DNA of 24,711 bases from IMG/VR virus record IMGVR_UViG_3300005096_000094, positions 1-24,711 of that record. One strand, 5' to 3'. The notes under the pieces are model-generated. The model made no database searches, had not been told where the DNA came from, and was given only the letters and a program-made list of their open reading frames with translations. A program made the translations under genes and the position numbers. Source of the stretch: a virus. Below, piece by piece: positions 81 through 17,299 of this stretch (positions are counted from its first letter, which is position 1; the number at the start of each line of letters is the position of its first letter).

Positions 81-2201
81 GTGTTTGTTTTGGTTGGAGC
101 ACTAATAGCAGGCACCCATACGAAGTCGCTATATACCGCTGAGGGTGGCACGCCGAATACTGGTAAAAGTAATCGGGATGAATATTTTAACGAAGATGCT
201 CAACGATGGGATGGGGTGCTACCGAAAAACGATGATCCCGGTGCTGCTGATGGTGATTCAAATCATTATTTAGTTCTCGATATTCGTGGTCAATATGGCC
301 CACCCGTTTTCACTAATTTATTGTTCGACGATAGAAATTCAGCCCGGATCACGCTTTATTGGGACGGCCCGGCTGCGAAGTTACACGTCGTTAGCATTCA
401 CGGCACAAAATCAATTTCGTGGATGGTGAATTACGATCCGCTAATTGATGACTATTCGTACGGGATAGGGGCGGGCGGTAGGGATGGTGGAATAACAATC
501 CCCCAAGTTAACCGGATAAGTGTTGGAAAAACTTTCGCTTTAACAAAAACGCCAAATGGAAAGTTATGGCTTTTTGGCACAAGTACAAACAGTCTGAAAT
601 TTCAGTGTAGTAGTGATGACGGCGCTAGCTGGCTACCAAATGAAATTAATTTGGCTGCAATAAATGGAGTAGGTTCTGTCGATTGTTGTTGGTTTACAGA
701 GTTGGGCGTTAATTACCCATGTGTTTTTGCATCGGAAGACGACTTAATAACCGGGGCAGAACAGTACTTTTTTTATATAGACGAAGATAATTTAGATGTA
801 ACAGTCCCTGGGAATTGGATCAATGACAGTGCAAATATCCCTGCATTAGATGCTGGTGCATTAGCAGATGACCACGTCTGCATGGCAGTGCATGTGCCAA
901 CGGGCAAAACATTCATCGTATACAAAGATAGTCTTAACAACATAAAGTTTGTTACCAGAACTTCTAGCGGTGTGTGGGAAGGGACTTACGAACCATGGAA
1001 TGCGTCGTCGTTAAAGACGCGCCCTACGCTCGCTATAAAAGACATAGATGGCGCTTCAGGGCAGGAACTTATTATATTTGTTACCAGAGGTGCTAATGGT
1101 CAGCAGGTAACGTATAGAACCACACCACTCGATGTAATTAATTTTTCAGCGTCGACAGTTATCATTGAAGACACGAGCAACACCAACCGTAATTTTAATG
1201 ATACTCGGGTAATTCAGGGGGACTTAACGTATACAGCTGAGTCTGGCGTACTCGTAATTGCAGATCATGTGCTTAATGCTGAGCAGTGGTACGGCTCGAT
1301 AGCCATTACTGCTCCACAGATTATTGATGTACCTGCTGCATCGCAGAGCATTACTAGTTATTCGCCTGCTGTTGCAGCATCAGAAAATCAGTTAATTGAT
1401 GTCCCTCGTACTGATCTGAATTTAATCAGTCTCGCGCCGGTCATTGATGTTACTGCGCATGTGCGCAGCAATGTTCCGGCAGCGTCGTTGTTCTTGACTG
1501 GAGAACAGCCGGTCATCGATGTGAGTGCTGATGAGATAGTTGATGTGCCGTTAGCTGCGCTTAACATTAATGCTAGTGCACCAGACGTAAATGCATCTGG
1601 TAATCAGTTGATTGATATTCCGGCGGCCGCGCTTGGGCTTGTCGGTTATCTGCCTGTTGCTGTGGCATCAGAACATCAGTCGGTCAATATACCGTTAGCT
1701 GTGTTGGAGTTGAGCGGTTTCGCGCCGAATATTAATGCTGATTCGAGCATTAATGTTGCGGTGCCCGTCGCGGCGCTTTCTGTTGTCGGGTTATCGCCTG
1801 CAGTAAATGCAGGCGGTAATCAAACGGTCAATGTACCGTTGACCGCGCTTAGCCTTGTCGCTAATGCGCCAGTTGTGAATGCAGCTGATGATCAGGTGGT
1901 TGATGTTCCTGCGGCAACGTTAACGGTCACCGGTTATCTACCGCTGATTGCTACTGGTGCGAATATTACAGTTGATCCTGGTAGTGGTGCGTTGACGTTA
2001 ACAGGGCAGGCCCCTGCGGTTGAAACTACTGGGCTGGTTACAATAGAGGTGCCTGTTGCGGCACTTGGTGTCACGGGATATGTGCCGATTATTGATAGCG
2101 GTTTAGTGTTGGTGACGCCAGACGGCCGGGTATTTGTGATTGCGGCTGATGATCGAGTTTTTGAAATCCAGTTAGATGATGGTGCTTGTACGATCCAATG
2201 A
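81..2201 (+). CDS. Large phage fiber or decoration-type protein: Asp-box domain plus eleven 24-residue repeats
   Basis: This 706-residue protein has two parts. Residues about 20 to 410 look beta-rich and contain one sialidase-type Asp box, SSDDGASW at 177-184, suggesting a BNR-like propeller. Residues 414 to about 676 are eleven degenerate repeats of the pattern VPxAxLxLxGxxPxVxA. The C-terminal tail (TPDGRVFVIAADDRVFEIQ) is of a kind I recall from phage structural proteins. The start is the GTG at 81, the first start codon in the frame, which is open back to 45; TTG 90 is possible, and a beginning lost to a frameshift near the window edge cannot be excluded. It overlaps the next gene by ATGA. 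A virion surface role, perhaps glycan binding, is inferred; no catalytic set is visible. Confidence 0.75.
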   Translation: MFVLVGALIAGTHTKSLYTAEGGTPNTGKSNRDEYFNEDAQRWDGVLPKNDDPGAADGDSNHYLVLDIRGQYGPPVFTNLLFDDRNSARITLYWDGPAAKLHVVSIHGTKSISWMVNYDPLIDDYSYGIGAGGRDGGITIPQVNRISVGKTFALTKTPNGKLWLFGTSTNSLKFQCSSDDGASWLPNEINLAAINGVGSVDCCWFTELGVNYPCVFASEDDLITGAEQYFFYIDEDNLDVTVPGNWINDSANIPALDAGALADDHVCMAVHVPTGKTFIVYKDSLNNIKFVTRTSSGVWEGTYEPWNASSLKTRPTLAIKDIDGASGQELIIFVTRGANGQQVTYRTTPLDVINFSASTVIIEDTSNTNRNFNDTRVIQGDLTYTAESGVLVIADHVLNAEQWYGSIAITAPQIIDVPAASQSITSYSPAVAASENQLIDVPRTDLNLISLAPVIDVTAHVRSNVPAASLFLTGEQPVIDVSADEIVDVPLAALNINASAPDVNASGNQLIDIPAAALGLVGYLPVAVASEHQSVNIPLAVLELSGFAPNINADSSINVAVPVAALSVVGLSPAVNAGGNQTVNVPLTALSLVANAPVVNAADDQVVDVPAATLTVTGYLPLIATGANITVDPGSGALTLTGQAPAVETTGLVTIEVPVAALGVTGYVPIIDSGLVLVTPDGRVFVIAADDRVFEIQLDDGACTIQ
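1320..2108 (+). repeat. Eleven in-frame degenerate repeats of about 72 bases (24 residues)
   Basis: The units begin with a V/I-D-V/I-P type motif and carry xAxLxLxGxxPxV, often ending in N-Q or D-Q before the next unit; units starting VDVPLAAL, IDIPAAAL, VNVPLTAL and IEVPVAAL show the pattern well. The period is 22 to 25 residues. Conservation is at the protein level and the DNA copies have diverged, so recent slippage is unlikely. Such repeats probably form a rod or stacked beta fold; this is inferred. Confidence 0.85.
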
Positions 2202-6374: not shown

Positions 6375-7994
6375 ATGAGTGCTAATCAGGATCAATCGCT
6401 AATCGTGGATATGAATGGGAATAATTTCCCGGCGTCGTCTATGAGTGGTTATACCGGCGGGCAGTCGAATCATGACATGCTGAGTTGGAATCCGCCTGTA
6501 CGTTCGCCAGATGCGGAACTGTTGCCGGACATGAATGGCATGGTGGGTCGTGCGCACGATATGCAGCGCAATATGCCGCTTGCGTCTGGTGCTGCGCAAA
6601 TTCATGTTGATAATATTATTGGTTCGGGTCTTCGTCTGTCGGCAAAACCTAACTATAAAGCACTTGGGTTGGATGCTGATTGGGCGGCTGATTGGTCGCG
6701 TCTCACAGAAGCAAAGTTTCGTGCATGGGCTGATGATCCTGAATGTTATATCGATGCAGGACGACGTTTGACTTTTGGTGCAATGCAGGTGCTCGCGCAA
6801 CAACAGTTTTTAGGACCTGGTGAAATGCTTGGTGTCGCCGAATGGTTGCCGGATCGTGGTTGTCAGTATGCCACTGCTATACAAATGATTGATCCTGCGC
6901 GCCTTAGTAATCCAAATGGTCAAATGGATACGGCTACTCTTCGTGGTGGTGTTGAGATGGATAAATACAGTGCTGCACATACTTATCATTTTCGTAGTGC
7001 ACTGCAGAGTGATATGCGTTTTGCAGGCAGTGAAACTTATCGTTGGGAGCCTGTAAAGCGTGAAACGACCTGGGGTCGTCAGCAGGTTATCCATCTATAT
7101 GAGCAGAAACGACCTGGTCAATCACGTGGCATCACAGGGCTCGCGACTGTTATTTCTAACAGTTTCAAGTTGAACCAGCTGCAGAATGTCACCATGGATG
7201 CAGCGGTACTGAACGCAATGTATGCGGCAGTGCTTAAAACAGATATGAACTATGCGCAAGCCGCCGAAACACTTGGGGCTGAGGATGTCGCGCCTTATCT
7301 TACTGGTGTAATGAGTGCGGGACAGTCTTTTTATGGCGACCGTGGTGTGCGCGTTAATGGTAAGCAGGTTACGCGCTTAATGCCTGGTGATGAGCTTGAT
7401 TTTAATTCAGTCAACCAGCCGGGCCCCAACTTTGCCCAGTTTGAAAAATCATTTCTCAGGAATCTTGCCGCGGGTTGGAATCTCACTTACGAGCAGCTCG
7501 CAAGGGATTATACGCAAACTAATTACAGTGGTGCACGTGCTGGGTTAATGGAAGCGTGGAAGTTCTTTACTGCTAATCGTGATCTTTATGGGGCACGGTT
7601 TGCGGCAATGGTTTATTCCCTCTGGTTAGAAGAGGCAATCGATAAGGGTGATATTGAACTGCCGTCCAGCGCACCAGATTTCTACGAAGCAAAATCTGCT
7701 TATTGTCGTTCTAAATGGATTGGTCCGGGTAAAGGTGAGATTGATCCTTTAAAAGAAACCAAAGCGAAACGCGAGAAGATGGAGGCATTTACGCTCACGT
7801 ATGAAGATGCGTGTGCTGAGGATGGTAAAGACTGGGAAGACAATCTGGAGCAGATTGCTAGAGAGAGAAGGCGCATGGCCGACCTTAGTTTGACGATGGC
7901 CGATATCGTCCCCGCCCAGGGTGATGACGCTTTTCCGAGTGATGAAGAAAATGAAGCGGGCGAAGCGGATGGTGTTGCGGGGGGGGGGGCTTGA
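6375..7994 (+). CDS. B: Portal protein, lambda gpB family; frame ends just after an 11-G run
   Basis: This 539-residue protein (lambda gpB 533) forms the dodecameric DNA channel at the capsid vertex. Family features are ASGAAQIHVDNIIGSGLRLS near residues 72-92, WADDPECYIDAGRRLTF, FLGPGEMLGVAEW, IQMIDPARLSNP, IHLYEQKRPGQSRGIT, and the late segment LTYEQLARDYTQTNYSGARA near 370-390 before a Trp-rich helix. The frame stops at 7992-7994, directly after a G11 homopolymer that encodes the terminal GGG. A second frame carrying a portal-like extension follows immediately, so the natural C-terminus may be longer. Possible explanations are a base error, a real indel, or slippage. Confidence 0.94.
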   Translation: MSANQDQSLIVDMNGNNFPASSMSGYTGGQSNHDMLSWNPPVRSPDAELLPDMNGMVGRAHDMQRNMPLASGAAQIHVDNIIGSGLRLSAKPNYKALGLDADWAADWSRLTEAKFRAWADDPECYIDAGRRLTFGAMQVLAQQQFLGPGEMLGVAEWLPDRGCQYATAIQMIDPARLSNPNGQMDTATLRGGVEMDKYSAAHTYHFRSALQSDMRFAGSETYRWEPVKRETTWGRQQVIHLYEQKRPGQSRGITGLATVISNSFKLNQLQNVTMDAAVLNAMYAAVLKTDMNYAQAAETLGAEDVAPYLTGVMSAGQSFYGDRGVRVNGKQVTRLMPGDELDFNSVNQPGPNFAQFEKSFLRNLAAGWNLTYEQLARDYTQTNYSGARAGLMEAWKFFTANRDLYGARFAAMVYSLWLEEAIDKGDIELPSSAPDFYEAKSAYCRSKWIGPGKGEIDPLKETKAKREKMEAFTLTYEDACAEDGKDWEDNLEQIARERRRMADLSLTMADIVPAQGDDAFPSDEENEAGEADGVAGGGA

Positions 7995-8241
7995 TAGTTT
8001 CAAACGTGATGTGGATGCTTATGGTGTCGGTGTGCGAGCGGGTGCGCTAACGCCTCAGCCTGAGGATGAAAGGCACTTTAGGGAAAAGGCTGATTTCCCT
8101 GTGATGTCGGAAAAAGTAGAGGATGCATGGGCTAATGACGGTGGTGTGCGTAGGCCAGTTACATTGCAATCTGGTGTTGCATTTGACGCTACGCAGGATC
8201 AGATAAAGGATGAGTCTGAAGAATCGTCGTCTGAGAAATAA
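7921..8241 (+). CDS. Probable portal C-terminal extension in the +1 frame
   Basis: The frame is open from GTG 7921, but its first 20 codons are only the shadow of the portal's acidic tail. The meaningful part begins after the G-run at 7990 with LDSFKRDVDAYGVGVRAG, then ALTPQPEDERHFREKADFP, VMSEKVEDAWANDGGVRRPV and an acidic end. I recall DAYGVGVRAG-LTPQ-type segments at the end of, or just after, lambda-type portals in other phages. If the G-run were 10 bases rather than 11, the portal would read straight into it and be about 622 residues. Otherwise a short gene could start at GTG 8011, though no clear ribosome site is visible. The coding character is convincing; the link to the portal is inferred. 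Confidence 0.65.
   Translation: MMTLFRVMKKMKRAKRMVLRGGGLDSFKRDVDAYGVGVRAGALTPQPEDERHFREKADFPVMSEKVEDAWANDGGVRRPVTLQSGVAFDATQDQIKDESEESSSEK
7979..7989 (+). repeat. Homopolymeric run of 11 G at the portal 3' end
   Basis: Eleven consecutive G residues lie at the point where the coding signal changes frame. No other G-run of this length was noticed in the window. Such runs are prone to replication slippage, transcriptional slippage and sequencing error. Loss of one G joins the portal to the downstream extension. Confidence 0.95.
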
Positions 8242-8255
8242 AAACCCAAAGACAA

Positions 8256-8310
8256 GGCGTGTAGGCGCCAAAACGTAGGTCAGGGACTACAGTCGTGTGT
8301 CCTTTTTTTT
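8256..8310 (+). promoter_or_regulatory. Possible structured leader with alternative hairpins and a T8 tract before the protease gene
   Basis: Between the portal extension and the protease start is an 83-base gap, the largest in the 3750-11046 block. It holds a GC hairpin (GGCG/CGCC, 8256-8269, 6-base loop) and a second hairpin (8275-8290: GTAG, one bulged G, TC, pairing with GACTAC). A competing 4-bp stem, GGAC 8284-8287 with GTCC 8299-8302, sits directly against T8 at 8303-8310. The last pair resembles a weak intrinsic terminator that excludes hairpin 2, an attenuator-like layout. The protease ribosome site GGAG 8315-8318 follows. The pairings are seen; regulation is inferred. Confidence 0.35.
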
Positions 8311-11578: not shown

Positions 11579-11914
11579 ATGAGAATTCGCATATTATCCC
11601 TCGCCCTGGCGCTTCTGGGTCCAGCTTTTATGTTGCCCAGCTACTCAGTAGCTGGCGATGTTTTAGCTGTACCAGAAGTGTTCCAGGCATCAAGTGATGT
11701 GCTCTATACCATTGATCAGCCCGCGCAGTGTGCAAGCTGCCATAGCCAGAGTATGAGCGCGCAGGCGGTCGCGAAGTATTTGGGCGTCACTAGTCCGGTA
11801 GTCGTTAAGTTTGTGGGTATTAGAGAGCGTCATAAGCAGTCTTGTGTTAACTGCCACAAAAAAACAACAGGTGCTCAGGCGGTCGCCTCGCATCGAATGT
11901 CACGCTTAATCTAG
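11579..11914 (+). CDS. Secreted diheme c-type cytochrome-like protein (moron gene)
   Basis: This 111-residue protein starts with a clear Sec signal peptide (basic MRIR, hydrophobic 5-20, probable cut after SVA at 25). The mature part has two CXXCH heme c sites, C51-ASCH55 and C89-VNCH93. Each is followed after five residues by AQAVA, so the protein seems to be two copies of one module 38 residues apart. H85 and H105 could serve as distal ligands. Maturation would take place in the periplasm using the host Ccm system. The ribosome site is AAGGAG at 11564-11569. The gene sits between the FI- and FII-like head genes, where lambda has none, and is followed by its own terminator. Electron transfer or respiration of the infected host is a plausible role. 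No specific cytochrome family is recognised. Confidence 0.85.
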   Translation: MRIRILSLALALLGPAFMLPSYSVAGDVLAVPEVFQASSDVLYTIDQPAQCASCHSQSMSAQAVAKYLGVTSPVVVKFVGIRERHKQSCVNCHKKTTGAQAVASHRMSRLI

Positions 11915-13459: not shown

Positions 13460-13678
13460 ATGGTGGCAAGTACAAAGCCGTTGCAGTTGCAACCGGCAGG
13501 GGTTCGCTTTGTCGGTAAAGGCAGCTCTGAAGCAGAGGCAGCGTATGAGGTTGCTGAGGCAGAGAAATTGAAGGCCGCGATCTCGAAGATTAAATCATTA
13601 AAAGAGCCTTCTGCGCAGGCTGTTGAGTCGGTAAAAAAAGAGGAGGTGGCCAGTGCTAACAAGAAAAAGAACGATTAG
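13460..13678 (+). CDS. Small phage protein between tail terminator and tube, 72 aa
   Basis: ATG 13460 has AGAGG at 13447-13451, so the longer frame back to 13403 is not preferred. The N-terminus QLQPAGVRFVGKGSSEAEAA is followed by a charged helix (EVAEAEKLKAAISKIKSLKE) and a Lys-rich tail. It overlaps the tube start by 26 bases, and its last codons contain the tube gene's AGGAGG site, so the two are probably co-regulated. Lambda has no gene here. Function unknown; a small tail assembly helper is a guess. Confidence 0.7.
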   Translation: MVASTKPLQLQPAGVRFVGKGSSEAEAAYEVAEAEKLKAAISKIKSLKEPSAQAVESVKKEEVASANKKKND

Positions 13679-14600
13679 ATGTGCGATCGAGGCGGTAACG
13701 AATGTCGCTGAAACGCTTACATCTGCTGATGCAATTACCGCCGAGAATATAAGCGTTTCTCTAGCGAACGAAAAACGTGTTGAACCGCCTGCAGTTGGTG
13801 CAGACATGGCAGCGGCAAAATCGCTGTTTGTTAGTGCGCTAGTAGAAGTGACGTTTGATCTGCGCGTGAAGGGAGCAGCTGCGGCATATAGTGCAACTGT
13901 ATTACCAGAGATGAACGTGCCACTGCAAATTTCTGGCGTCGGCATCACGATTGATACAACGCCGGGTGCTGAGTCTGCAACCTACAGGCCTTCTAGCGTT
14001 ACCAGCACTCATAAAACAGCTACGTTTGAGGTTTATAACGATGGCTTGCTCTATGTGCTTACAGGATGTGTGGCGGGCTGGTCTAGTGATATTAGTAATG
14101 GTGCGCAGGGCATGGTGTCGTTTACTGTTACAGGGCATTGTGTCGGTGTTGTTGATGCGGCCATTCCTACAGATGCGCCGTCAACAATCGAGGCGCCAAA
14201 AGTGATCGGCCTTGGTTTTGATATTGGTGGTTATGGTGCGGTGATCAGTAGTCTCAAAGTTGATCCTGGTCTATCGCCGGTATGGCCAGATGATGTTAAT
14301 GCAGTTGATGGGTTTGGCAATGCGGTAATCATTGACCGTAAATTTAAAGGCACCATCGATCCGCTGGCGGTGCTGGTTGCTACGCATAATTTCGAGGCCA
14401 GATTTCGCGCAGGCACAGAGATGGTGATCACTACGGGTGATGTGGGTTCTGTGTTGTATAACAAGTATAACTTGACATTCGGGCGGGCCTATTATGACTC
14501 GATTGGTGGTGGTGACCGCGATGGCATTGCATCTAACGAAATGGGATTTAGTGCGCTGCCTGTATTAGGTGATGACGAATGGGTATGGGTATTTAACTAA
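13653..14600 (+). CDS. Major tail tube protein (functional gpV analogue)
   Basis: This 315-residue protein starts at GTG 13653, with a near-perfect AGGAGG at 13641-13646 spaced 6 bases. The pattern is long and beta-rich: MNVPLQISGVGITIDTTPGA, KTATFEVYNDGLLYVLTGCV, a GMVSFTVTG strand typical of tube subunits, and the late YNLTFGRAYYDSIGGGDRDG. Tube hexamers form the channel around the tape measure. The position between terminator and G chaperone and the strong initiation site support a major tail protein. It is longer than lambda gpV (246 aa), so an extra surface domain is possible. The overlap with the G start is one base. Confidence 0.82.
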   Translation: MLTRKRTIRCAIEAVTNVAETLTSADAITAENISVSLANEKRVEPPAVGADMAAAKSLFVSALVEVTFDLRVKGAAAAYSATVLPEMNVPLQISGVGITIDTTPGAESATYRPSSVTSTHKTATFEVYNDGLLYVLTGCVAGWSSDISNGAQGMVSFTVTGHCVGVVDAAIPTDAPSTIEAPKVIGLGFDIGGYGAVISSLKVDPGLSPVWPDDVNAVDGFGNAVIIDRKFKGTIDPLAVLVATHNFEARFRAGTEMVITTGDVGSVLYNKYNLTFGRAYYDSIGGGDRDGIASNEMGFSALPVLGDDEWVWVFN

Positions 14601-14989
14601 TGGATAATAACAACGATTCAGAAAATTTTGAGCCATTTTGGTTTACGCCAAATCGTTATCGAACGCCCAAAGAAGAGGTTGAAGAGGGTGCGCCGGAATA
14701 CAAAGACGGTGCGCCACGTTACAAACTCAAACCGTTAAATGGAATTGAAGTGGCTGATTATGTTGGCCGCATTAATGTTAACGAGCACGGTGTTTATGTA
14801 TTTCATCCCGGTGTCGTGGCAAGCCTGGTGTTCTCTTTTTGTTCAGGCTGGGAAGGCGTTGAATTTGAAGGTGAGGCGGTTGCTTATGACCTCAAAGAAA
14901 TCGGTAAAGTGCAGGGGCTGGATCTGCACGCCTGTGCCGGCGCCATTATCGACCGCTCATATTTGAGTGAGGACGACCTAAAAAACTAA
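14600..14989 (+). CDS. G: Tail assembly chaperone G
   Basis: This 129-residue acidic protein lies between tube and tape measure genes, the universal place for siphovirus tail chaperones. It contains YKLKPLNGIEVADYVGRINV, a central helical part and the end EDDLKN. The final codons CTA AAA AAC TAA hold a slippery heptamer, so a share of ribosomes would shift to -1 and make a G-T fusion. G and GT bind the tape measure during tail assembly. The start overlaps the tube stop (TAATG). Confidence 0.85.
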   Translation: MDNNNDSENFEPFWFTPNRYRTPKEEVEEGAPEYKDGAPRYKLKPLNGIEVADYVGRINVNEHGVYVFHPGVVASLVFSFCSGWEGVEFEGEAVAYDLKEIGKVQGLDLHACAGAIIDRSYLSEDDLKN

Positions 14990-15036
14990 TCACTGCAATC
15001 GAAGTTAGGTCCAATGCCAAAGACTTTGATTGCAGT
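14980..15036 (+). promoter_or_regulatory. Programmed -1 ribosomal frameshift signal (A AAA AAC plus stem-loop)
   Basis: In the G frame the heptamer A AAA AAC occupies 14980-14986, directly before the TAA stop. After a 5-base spacer, ACTGCAATCGAAGTT (14992-15006) pairs with GACTTTGATTGCAGT (15022-15036): 15 pairs including two G-T wobbles, with a 15-base loop. Slippery heptamer, spacer length and stem match the textbook -1 frameshift layout. Lambda uses a different heptamer (G GGA AAG) at the same genetic position. Confidence 0.93.
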
Positions 15037-15321
15037 ACCTGCAGAGAGAAATATTGTGATGTAGATAAGCGTTACCCAGATTCACTGGGGCGCGCGCCTT
15101 ATCCGTTATGGGAGATCGATCATCCGGCATTGGATGGTCAGATCCTAAAGTTTTCTACTTGTCCATTACCCTCTATTACTAGCAAAACAACACTGTTATT
15201 GATGTTGCACGACAACTATAAACGCGGGGTTTTTTATAGCCCGGGCGATTCGTATTTTAAGCAGCCTAATTTTTACCTTGCTTCAATGAAATTTCTGGAG
15301 AGAAACCGTGAGTGTTCCTAA
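14986..15321 (+). CDS. T: T domain of the G-T fusion chaperone, expressed by -1 frameshift
   Basis: After the shift the reading frame runs 111 codons from CTA 14986 to the TAA at 15319-15321 and has no good start of its own (only TTG 15130), as expected of a frameshift extension. It encodes LITAIEVRSNAKDFD, a cysteine cluster C-STC-REKYC and the end YFKQPNFYLASMKFLERNRE. With G it forms a fusion of about 240 residues. In lambda the T part recruits tube subunits to the tape measure complex. The Cys cluster may bind metal. It overlaps the tape measure start by 14 bases. Confidence 0.88.
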   Translation, partial: LITAIEVRSNAKDFDCSTCREKYCDVDKRYPDSLGRAPYPLWEIDHPALDGQILKFSTCPLPSITSKTTLLLMLHDNYKRGVFYSPGDSYFKQPNFYLASMKFLERNRECS

Positions 15322-17299
15322 GGCGAGATTTGATATTGTTGCTGGGGATAAATCCAAAGCTGCGTTCAAGTCGTTCAACTCCAGTGTAAAAACATCTGGT
15401 ACGAACGTTAAGCGCCTTACTGCGGGTGTGTTGGGTTTGGTGGGTGTAACTGGCATCGGCGCATTAATTAAAATGAATGCCGATGCGGCGGACTCGAATG
15501 CAAAATTATCGGATAAATTGGGTGTTTCAACTGAAAGATTGGCGGGGTTGCGTTTTGGTATCGGGCAAATTGTTGGTGATGCTGGTGGCTTTGAAGAGGC
15601 GTTAACAAAGGCATCTAAGAGGCTAGGTGAGTTCAACGCGACTGGTGGTGGTGCTGCTGCTGTTTGGTTAAAAGAGTTAAGCCTTGATACGCGTGAACTT
15701 GCGAAATTAAAACCTGATGAGCTGTTTTTAAAATATGCAGAGTCGGTGCGTGGTCTGAGTGACCGCGGCCAGCAGATGGCGGCTATGTCTGCGCTAATGG
15801 GTGATGAGTCTCGCAAATTTCTCGGCGTGATCGATGCTGGACCAGATGCACTGGAAGCCTACGCTAAAGAAGCTGAGGCGTTAGGCATTGCACTCAATAG
15901 AGTTGACAGTGCAAAGATTGAAGCTGCCAACGACGCAATCACCAGGTCATCTTTAGTCTTTTCTGGCATTGGTACGCGTATGGCGGTGGAGTTGGCGCCA
16001 TTTTTTGAAACAGCAGCTAATAATTTTGCTGATCTTGCAGTCGAAAATAATGGATTTAGAGATGAAATTATTAATGGTATCGAAACCATAACATCGAGTG
16101 TTGCTTATCTTGGTGATTCATGGCTCAGCTGGAAGCTAATCTGGAAAACTTTAGAAGTTGGTTGGTTTGATTTTCAATCGGGTACGATTGATGGTCTTGC
16201 TGCGATAGATCGTGGAATTTCTAGCGTAGCTAATGCGCTGCCGGGGTTGAATGTTACGCCTAATGATGATCTTCAAAAGTGGGCAAAAGCCGGGCGTATT
16301 GAACTTGGTGCGGCACGGGCAGAGTTGTCTGCGATGGAAAATCAGCCGATGTCGGTAGATCGGGTAAAGAATTTTTTCGACACTGTGCGTGCTTCGTCTC
16401 AAGCAGCAGCTGAAGAGGTTGTGGCTAGTCGTAAAAAATTAAGAGATGATCTTTCTGGCGCTAATGGTGACGACGTCGGTGGTGATAGTACAACAACTGT
16501 CGCACAAGAAAAGGCGCTAGCATCGCACCGGTTGTTTCTGCTCGGTCGGATTGAGGCAACAGAGCAATCAGGTAAATCTGAAAACCAACGTTTTTTTGAA
16601 GCGCTCGAAAATCGAGAATTAATGCTTCAGGAAGCGCAGGCCCGAGGCGTTGGTTCGGCTGTTAGAAATTCTGAGCTGTTAGTTGATATTGAGCAGCAGC
16701 GCGAAGACAAGGTGCGGTCGATAACTCAGGCAGCAATAAAAGAAAACGAAAAAGCAGAAAAGTCGCGAGCTAAAGCGCGTATCGGTATTGCAACCGGCAT
16801 GCTTGGTAATTTGAGTTCGTTGATGAGTAGCGACTCAAAAAAGCAATTTGAGTTAGGGAAGAAAGCAGCTCTGGCTGGCGCGTTAATTTCGGGTGCTGCA
16901 GCAGTAGTTTCCAGTTATGCGGCGGGTGCCAAAATTGGTGGCCCATGGCTCGGGGCGGCTTATGCGGTAACCGCAGGCGTTGCGACCAAAATGCATGTCG
17001 ATTCGATCCGAAACCAGGAATTTAATGGCGGTGGTGCTATTAGTGGTGGCGGTGGTGGCGCAGGCGGTGGTGCTCAGCCGGTGTTTCAGGCTAATCCCAA
17101 TTCAGGATTGCCAGTTCAGGGCGTAGAACAAACGGGATCAGTTACTAATGTATATCTACCAGATCTCCCTGACACTGGTTATGTGCCCGTTGAAGTTCTT
17201 GATGTGATTTTTGATGAGCTGGCTAATCGCGTTAAGAATGGCGATGCGGTGTTTATCCGTCGTGGGTCACGGCAAGCCCAGGAAATATTATCAGCATAA
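15308..17299 (+). CDS. H: Tape measure protein
   Basis: This 663-residue protein starts at GTG 15308 with GGAG at 15297-15300. It shows the tape measure pattern: N-terminal FDIVAGDKSKAAFKSFNSSV and the repeated LGVSTERLAGLRFGIGQIVG then KPDELFLKYAESVRGLSDRG segments, long Ala- and Gly-rich helices, a hydrophobic stretch at about residues 517-562 (LAGALISGAAAVVSSYAAGA), and a Gly-rich linker near 574-590. It sets tail length and passes into the host envelope with DNA. With roughly 0.15 nm per residue the tail should be near 100 nm, somewhat shorter than lambda's (gpH 853 aa). Confidence 0.92.
   Translation: MSVPKARFDIVAGDKSKAAFKSFNSSVKTSGTNVKRLTAGVLGLVGVTGIGALIKMNADAADSNAKLSDKLGVSTERLAGLRFGIGQIVGDAGGFEEALTKASKRLGEFNATGGGAAAVWLKELSLDTRELAKLKPDELFLKYAESVRGLSDRGQQMAAMSALMGDESRKFLGVIDAGPDALEAYAKEAEALGIALNRVDSAKIEAANDAITRSSLVFSGIGTRMAVELAPFFETAANNFADLAVENNGFRDEIINGIETITSSVAYLGDSWLSWKLIWKTLEVGWFDFQSGTIDGLAAIDRGISSVANALPGLNVTPNDDLQKWAKAGRIELGAARAELSAMENQPMSVDRVKNFFDTVRASSQAAAEEVVASRKKLRDDLSGANGDDVGGDSTTTVAQEKALASHRLFLLGRIEATEQSGKSENQRFFEALENRELMLQEAQARGVGSAVRNSELLVDIEQQREDKVRSITQAAIKENEKAEKSRAKARIGIATGMLGNLSSLMSSDSKKQFELGKKAALAGALISGAAAVVSSYAAGAKIGGPWLGAAYAVTAGVATKMHVDSIRNQEFNGGGAISGGGGGAGGGAQPVFQANPNSGLPVQGVEQTGSVTNVYLPDLPDTGYVPVEVLDVIFDELANRVKNGDAVFIRRGSRQAQEILSA

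Follow-up and report, generated by a model that had tools for sequence, protein, structure and literature searches.

A conserved slippery heptamer, covarying stem and Shine-Dalgarno-like element at a probable G/GT tail chaperone locus of a lambda-like siphophage

Frameshifted tail chaperone genes described previously

Tail assembly chaperones produced as a short G form and a frameshifted GT form are described as widespread among tailed phages in PMC5009743, which cites Xu 2004. In phage lambda, T lies in the -1 frame after G, between the genes for the major tail protein and the tape measure protein, with the heptamer near the end of G and the fusion made by a -1 slip, according to Levin 1993 and Xu 2004 as cited in PMC5009743. 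Within an HK97-like chaperone cluster, two genes gave 6% and 7% frameshifting (PMC3711429). The heptamer A AAA AAC has been reported beside the gp12 stop of Acinetobacter phage Loki (PMC5313236), and in the tail chaperone genes of Caulobacter phage phiCbK (PMC3556154) and the haloarchaeal virus HCTV-2 (PMC5009743).

We analyzed a 24,711-nucleotide stretch of viral DNA (IMG/VR record IMGVR_UViG_3300005096_000094, positions 1 to 24,711; hereafter the window) that has the same G/GT layout as lambda. It differs from lambda in its heptamer, A AAA AAC rather than G GGA AAG, and the 66 nt after the end of lambda G fold only weakly better than shuffled sequences (z -1.87). An earlier note on this DNA had treated the heptamer as a variant of the conserved mechanism, a claim that is weak, as the three reports above already place A AAA AAC in tail chaperone genes. 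With the conservation of heptamer and T frame described below, the locus is a new member of the G/GT frameshift type, and the phenomenon itself is already known.

The gp12/gp13 locus of Loki (LN890663; L052) likewise has A AAA AAC followed directly by UAA, and a stem formed by GUGCUUGC and GCAAGCAC is similarly placed (L052 10020-10067, z -2.85). In contrast to the window, a further gene separates T from the tape measure gene in Loki, whose T is unrelated and not matched by the T profile of the window's family. An RNA model built for the element (R1) detects it in the window, in relatives L001 and L046 and in Alteromonas phage P24, and reaches Loki only at E 1.7; therefore the Loki stem is separate. 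The Loki case suggests that the layout of heptamer, stop and stem either originated or has been retained more widely. Burkholderia phages KL1 and AH2 also have GT-type frameshifts with stem-loops predicted downstream at their frameshift tail proteins (PMC3483164), although their heptamers are GGGAAAC and AAAAAAG, the stems were predicted by mfold, and the portions of PMC3483164 available to us describe no covariation test. Stems of this kind at GT genes may already be listed in Xu 2004. What is added here is a conserved three-part signal with covariation as its support, together with an unannotated T family that has four invariant cysteines.

The locus and its probable frameshift junction

The plus strand of the window carries the head and tail module of a lambda-like siphophage. 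Genes for terminase GpA, a lambda-family portal, an S49 peptidase, head decoration protein D and capsid protein E are followed on the same strand by a GpZ-like protein and then the tail tube gene. The latter (13653..14600) encodes a probable major tail tube protein with a weak match to Pfam Phage_tube_2 (E 4.9e-5, below the Pfam cut-off) and lies directly upstream of G (14600..14989), a tail assembly chaperone ORF of 129 aa in the zero frame that ends in A AAA AAC UAA. The -1 frame T domain, 111 codons and a stop, occupies 14986..15321, and the tape measure gene (15308..17299; phrog_9483 tail length tape measure, E 1.5e-97) starts with a GTG that overlaps the end of T. From tail tube through G and T to tape measure, the genes follow the G/GT arrangement, with the tail tube match weak. 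The source phage is a lambda-like siphophage whose nearest named relative is a marine Alteromonas phage.

Between the head and tail genes, at 11579-11914 (+), the window also encodes a protein of 111 aa that probably carries a signal peptide and has two CXXCH motifs (CASCH and CVNCH), weak Pfam matches to cytochromes and no match in the phage collection. Haem binding by proteins of this type may not be conserved, because the similar protein of the closest relative, L001, has CKSCR and CNTCR instead. The same gap in relatives holds differing small exported proteins (L001 1931-2338, L002 2192-2560), and in P24 a protein that looks lipoprotein-like, so the spot may be a cargo-gene position. In L001, unlike the window, a lipoprotein-like gene (7689-8288, minus strand) separates the tape measure gene from the tail gene that follows it. 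At 81-2201 (+) lies a 706-aa protein that matched no Pfam family and has C-terminal degenerate repeats of ~20-25 residues (VPxAxLxxxGxxPxV).

The junction itself contains every part that the earlier note had listed, and the positions and counts given there are correct. A slippery heptamer, A AAA AAC, lies in phase (cuA AAA AAC UAA) at 14980..14986 (+), with the UAA stop of G directly 3' of it at 14987..14989. A 5-nt spacer, UAAUC (14987-14991), leads to a stem-loop at 14992..15036 in which 14992-15006 pairs with 15022-15036 over 15 bp; its energy is -22.9 kcal/mol (z -5.86), and none of 200 shuffles was equally stable. From the slip, no stop interrupts the -1 frame for 111 codons, through 15318 (stop at 15319-15321), and the earliest ATG, GTG or TTG within it is a TTG at 15130. 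An Rfam scan of the window returned nothing. A pseudoknot between the loop (AGGU) and ACCU after the stem, picked out by eye in the window, was dropped, as L001 does not have the AGGU loop.

The resemblance of G to known tail assembly chaperones is distant. The window's own G matches no Pfam, PHROG or NCBIfam family (NCBIfam gave only chance matches), and no tail-chaperone Pfam family was among the matches of G or T members. Neither G nor T has significant sequence similarity to lambda G or T, and hhalign against the single lambda sequences gave probabilities of 0.1-0.2%. Among 39 G relatives, 10 hit phrog_313 'Tail assembly chaperone' (best E 1.6e-4). The AlphaFold model of G (pLDDT 85.8), predicted with a GenBank-derived protein left out, has BFVD matches that are annotated as tail assembly chaperones (E 3.1e-4 and 7.7e-4) and weakly resembles the HK97 chaperone 2ob9 (Z 3.8, 86 aligned, rmsd 5.7). 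Sequence and predicted structure thus lend moderate support to a distant relationship between G and known tail assembly chaperones.

Probable frameshifting and its alternatives

Programmed -1 frameshifting, as the earlier note proposed, fits the gene order, the in-phase heptamer, the stem, the missing T start and the conservation described below, and two chaperone forms are very probably made from one message in this way. Most ribosomes would read G and terminate at the UAA at 14987, while a minority would shift into the -1 frame on A AAA AAC, aided by strain from the 15-bp stem ahead and Shine-Dalgarno-like pairing behind, and read the 111 further codons of T, yielding a G-T fusion. On the lambda model, G would bind the tape measure protein and T would recruit tail tube subunits; with such roles, the slip rate would set the ratio of G to GT.

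The strongest alternative, which we nevertheless consider very unlikely, is that T is a separate protein made by re-initiation or from a start codon of its own downstream of the G stop. The close overlap of the G stop and T is common in translational coupling. However, the TTG at 15130 is 49 codons inside T, past three of the four cysteines (C17, C20, C25 and C60, numbered from the K at 14983) that are invariant in 42 T sequences, and most relatives have no early start codon in the T frame. The conserved region of T moreover begins at the heptamer, with K1 and L2 invariant, although the seeded search described next favoured this result.

These relatives came largely from alignment-based searches. 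Searches with single proteins of the locus found only one relative, and alignments were needed for more. In tblastn searches against phages, T matched only P24 and G matched nothing, and T had no match among plasmids. With three T sequences as query, 48 loci in IMG/VR and a single Thalassotalea MAG contig were recovered, and the heptamer A AAA AAC was present in 41 of 41 distinct junctions, with the G stop 0, 3 or 12 nt past it; many loci, in this search and the next, are interrelated, so such counts are not independent. L001 keeps the heptamer, stop, stem and T. P24 has an A AAA AAC UAA identical to that of the window and a T ~33% identical. Because one of the two peptide patterns used in the seeded search adjoins the junction, the search was repeated junction-blind, with the first 14 T residues left out of the query. 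All 30 further distinct loci found in this way have an in-phase slippery heptamer. The G stop lies within 15 nt in 25 of them (A AAA AAC in 13, A AAA AAA in 10, G GGA AAC in one and A AAA AAG in one) and 24-108 nt beyond the heptamer in the other five. An invariant A AAA AAC was rejected on these grounds, and the heptamer is strongly, not absolutely, fixed. The earlier note had named relatives lacking both heptamer and T frame as evidence that would count against frameshifting; the relatives keep the T frame and a slippery heptamer.

The downstream stem is conserved as a structure. In a gap-free alignment of 39 distinct sequences with an 11-bp core, 94% of core cells pair, compared to 27-46% when the arms are slid as a control, and both partners have changed in 38 cells; RNAalifold recovered the same helix unaided. 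The stem arms encode conserved T peptides, AIEV and FDC, and for this reason a codon-preserving null was used, in which codons at a position were shuffled only between sequences that share the amino acid there. None of 5000 such shuffles reached the observed pairing (0 of 2000 with the set thinned to 26 sequences), although the nulls ignore the tree and these counts are not exact probabilities. The codon for I6 or V6 covaries with that for D16, N16 or Y16 (AUC:GAU, GUU:AAC, AUU:AAU, GUC:GAC), and third positions differ from L001 in only 3 of 18 codons of the stem region versus 43 of 91 elsewhere in T. Among junction-blind relatives, the one with G GGA AAC keeps 10 of 11 pairs, two with an extra loop codon have 9 and 11 of 11 in shifted register, and the stem varies (6-11 of 11) in the remaining A6-A8 relatives. 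In some junction-blind relatives the junction carries nine consecutive A's, followed by C (A9C) or G (A9G), and in four A9G relatives (L085, L088, L093 and L095), which look like one lineage, the stem is lost (3-5 of 11 pairs). The absence of the stem in these weighs against the frameshift reading, and a switch to another mode of slipping, transcript slippage included, is possible there.

Slippage of RNA polymerase on the A run, which would make a shifted message, draws on these nine-A runs and on the stemless A9G relatives, where that mode of slipping may operate. We give it still less credence for the window, whose run has only six A's. In all seeded relatives the A run sits in the heptamer phase and is followed by C, one relative keeps the stem with G GGA AAC, and slippage by ribosomes, not by RNA polymerase, would lead one to expect a covarying stem 5 nt downstream.

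Neither the heptamer nor the length of the T frame is remarkable alone: AAAAAAC occurs 10 times on both strands of the window against 6.2 expected, and some of the window's long -1 frames arise where the next real gene shares that frame. Several window genes have -1 frames as long as T or longer, which speaks for the idea of a decayed gene or chance open frame without product, but that idea, the least probable of all, is already contradicted by conservation, with invariant cysteines, relatives down to ~28% identity and purifying selection on T against L001 (109 codons; dN 0.15, dS 1.55, dN/dS ~0.09). The combination of parts, kept in every distinct junction of the seeded search with a T frame under purifying selection, exceeds chance.

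The upstream element and the T family

Frameshifting would probably also be promoted from upstream. The earlier note had overlooked, along with the covariation of the stem, a Shine-Dalgarno-like element, GAGUGAGGA, inside G at 14965..14973 (+), 6 nt before the heptamer, a gap kept in most relatives. Across the relatives, the 23 nt before the heptamer pair with the 16S tail at -5.93 kcal/mol, compared to -4.10 in synonymous nulls (0 of 200), and a thinned set with a larger codon pool gave -6.33 versus -4.57 (0 of 2000). The site is not each gene's extreme, as ~19% of in-gene windows are equally strong at the median. The element is a probable 5' stimulator.

The layout of Shine-Dalgarno-like element, heptamer and stem resembles that of E. 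coli dnaX, which also has an upstream Shine-Dalgarno-like element, an A-rich heptamer and a downstream stem-loop (PMC5009743). In dnaX, however, the heptamer is A AAA AAG, the efficiency is ~50%, the -1 product is the shorter one and the gene is unrelated (PMC5009743). The window's signal would work like the dnaX cassette and is not a member of that family. A_AAA_AAC is reported to slip far less than A_AAA_AAG on E. coli ribosomes (PMC5009743), which weighs against the frameshift reading. Because of this difference, we would guess that the stem and the Shine-Dalgarno-like element may compensate for the weakness of the heptamer.

The four invariant cysteines of T suggest a metal site. The window's own T matches no Pfam, PHROG or NCBIfam family, and the family as a whole has no convincing Pfam match, no NCBIfam match and only marginal PHROG matches. 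The AlphaFold model of T (pLDDT 76) had no significant fold match in BFVD or the PDB. A wider reading, on which we are evenly divided, is that these loci form a widespread and largely unannotated GT family with a four-cysteine, probably metal-binding T whose first 20 codons also serve as a covarying RNA stimulator, the AIEV and FDC codons being reverse complements. Joined by the Shine-Dalgarno-like element, this would make a three-part cassette of the dnaX style, adjusted to boost slipping on a heptamer of low efficiency in E. coli and since relaxed in the A9G lineage.

Together the loci offer more than 60 alignable natural versions of one bacterial -1 signal, with a covarying stem, a Shine-Dalgarno-like element and a varying heptamer, a set useful for testing trade-offs among the three. 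As the earlier note anticipated of simple gene callers, the T half of this tail chaperone family, present in many environmental phage contigs and in P24, can be absent from annotations: the GenBank record of P24 has no CDS over T, which sits there between G and the tape measure gene.
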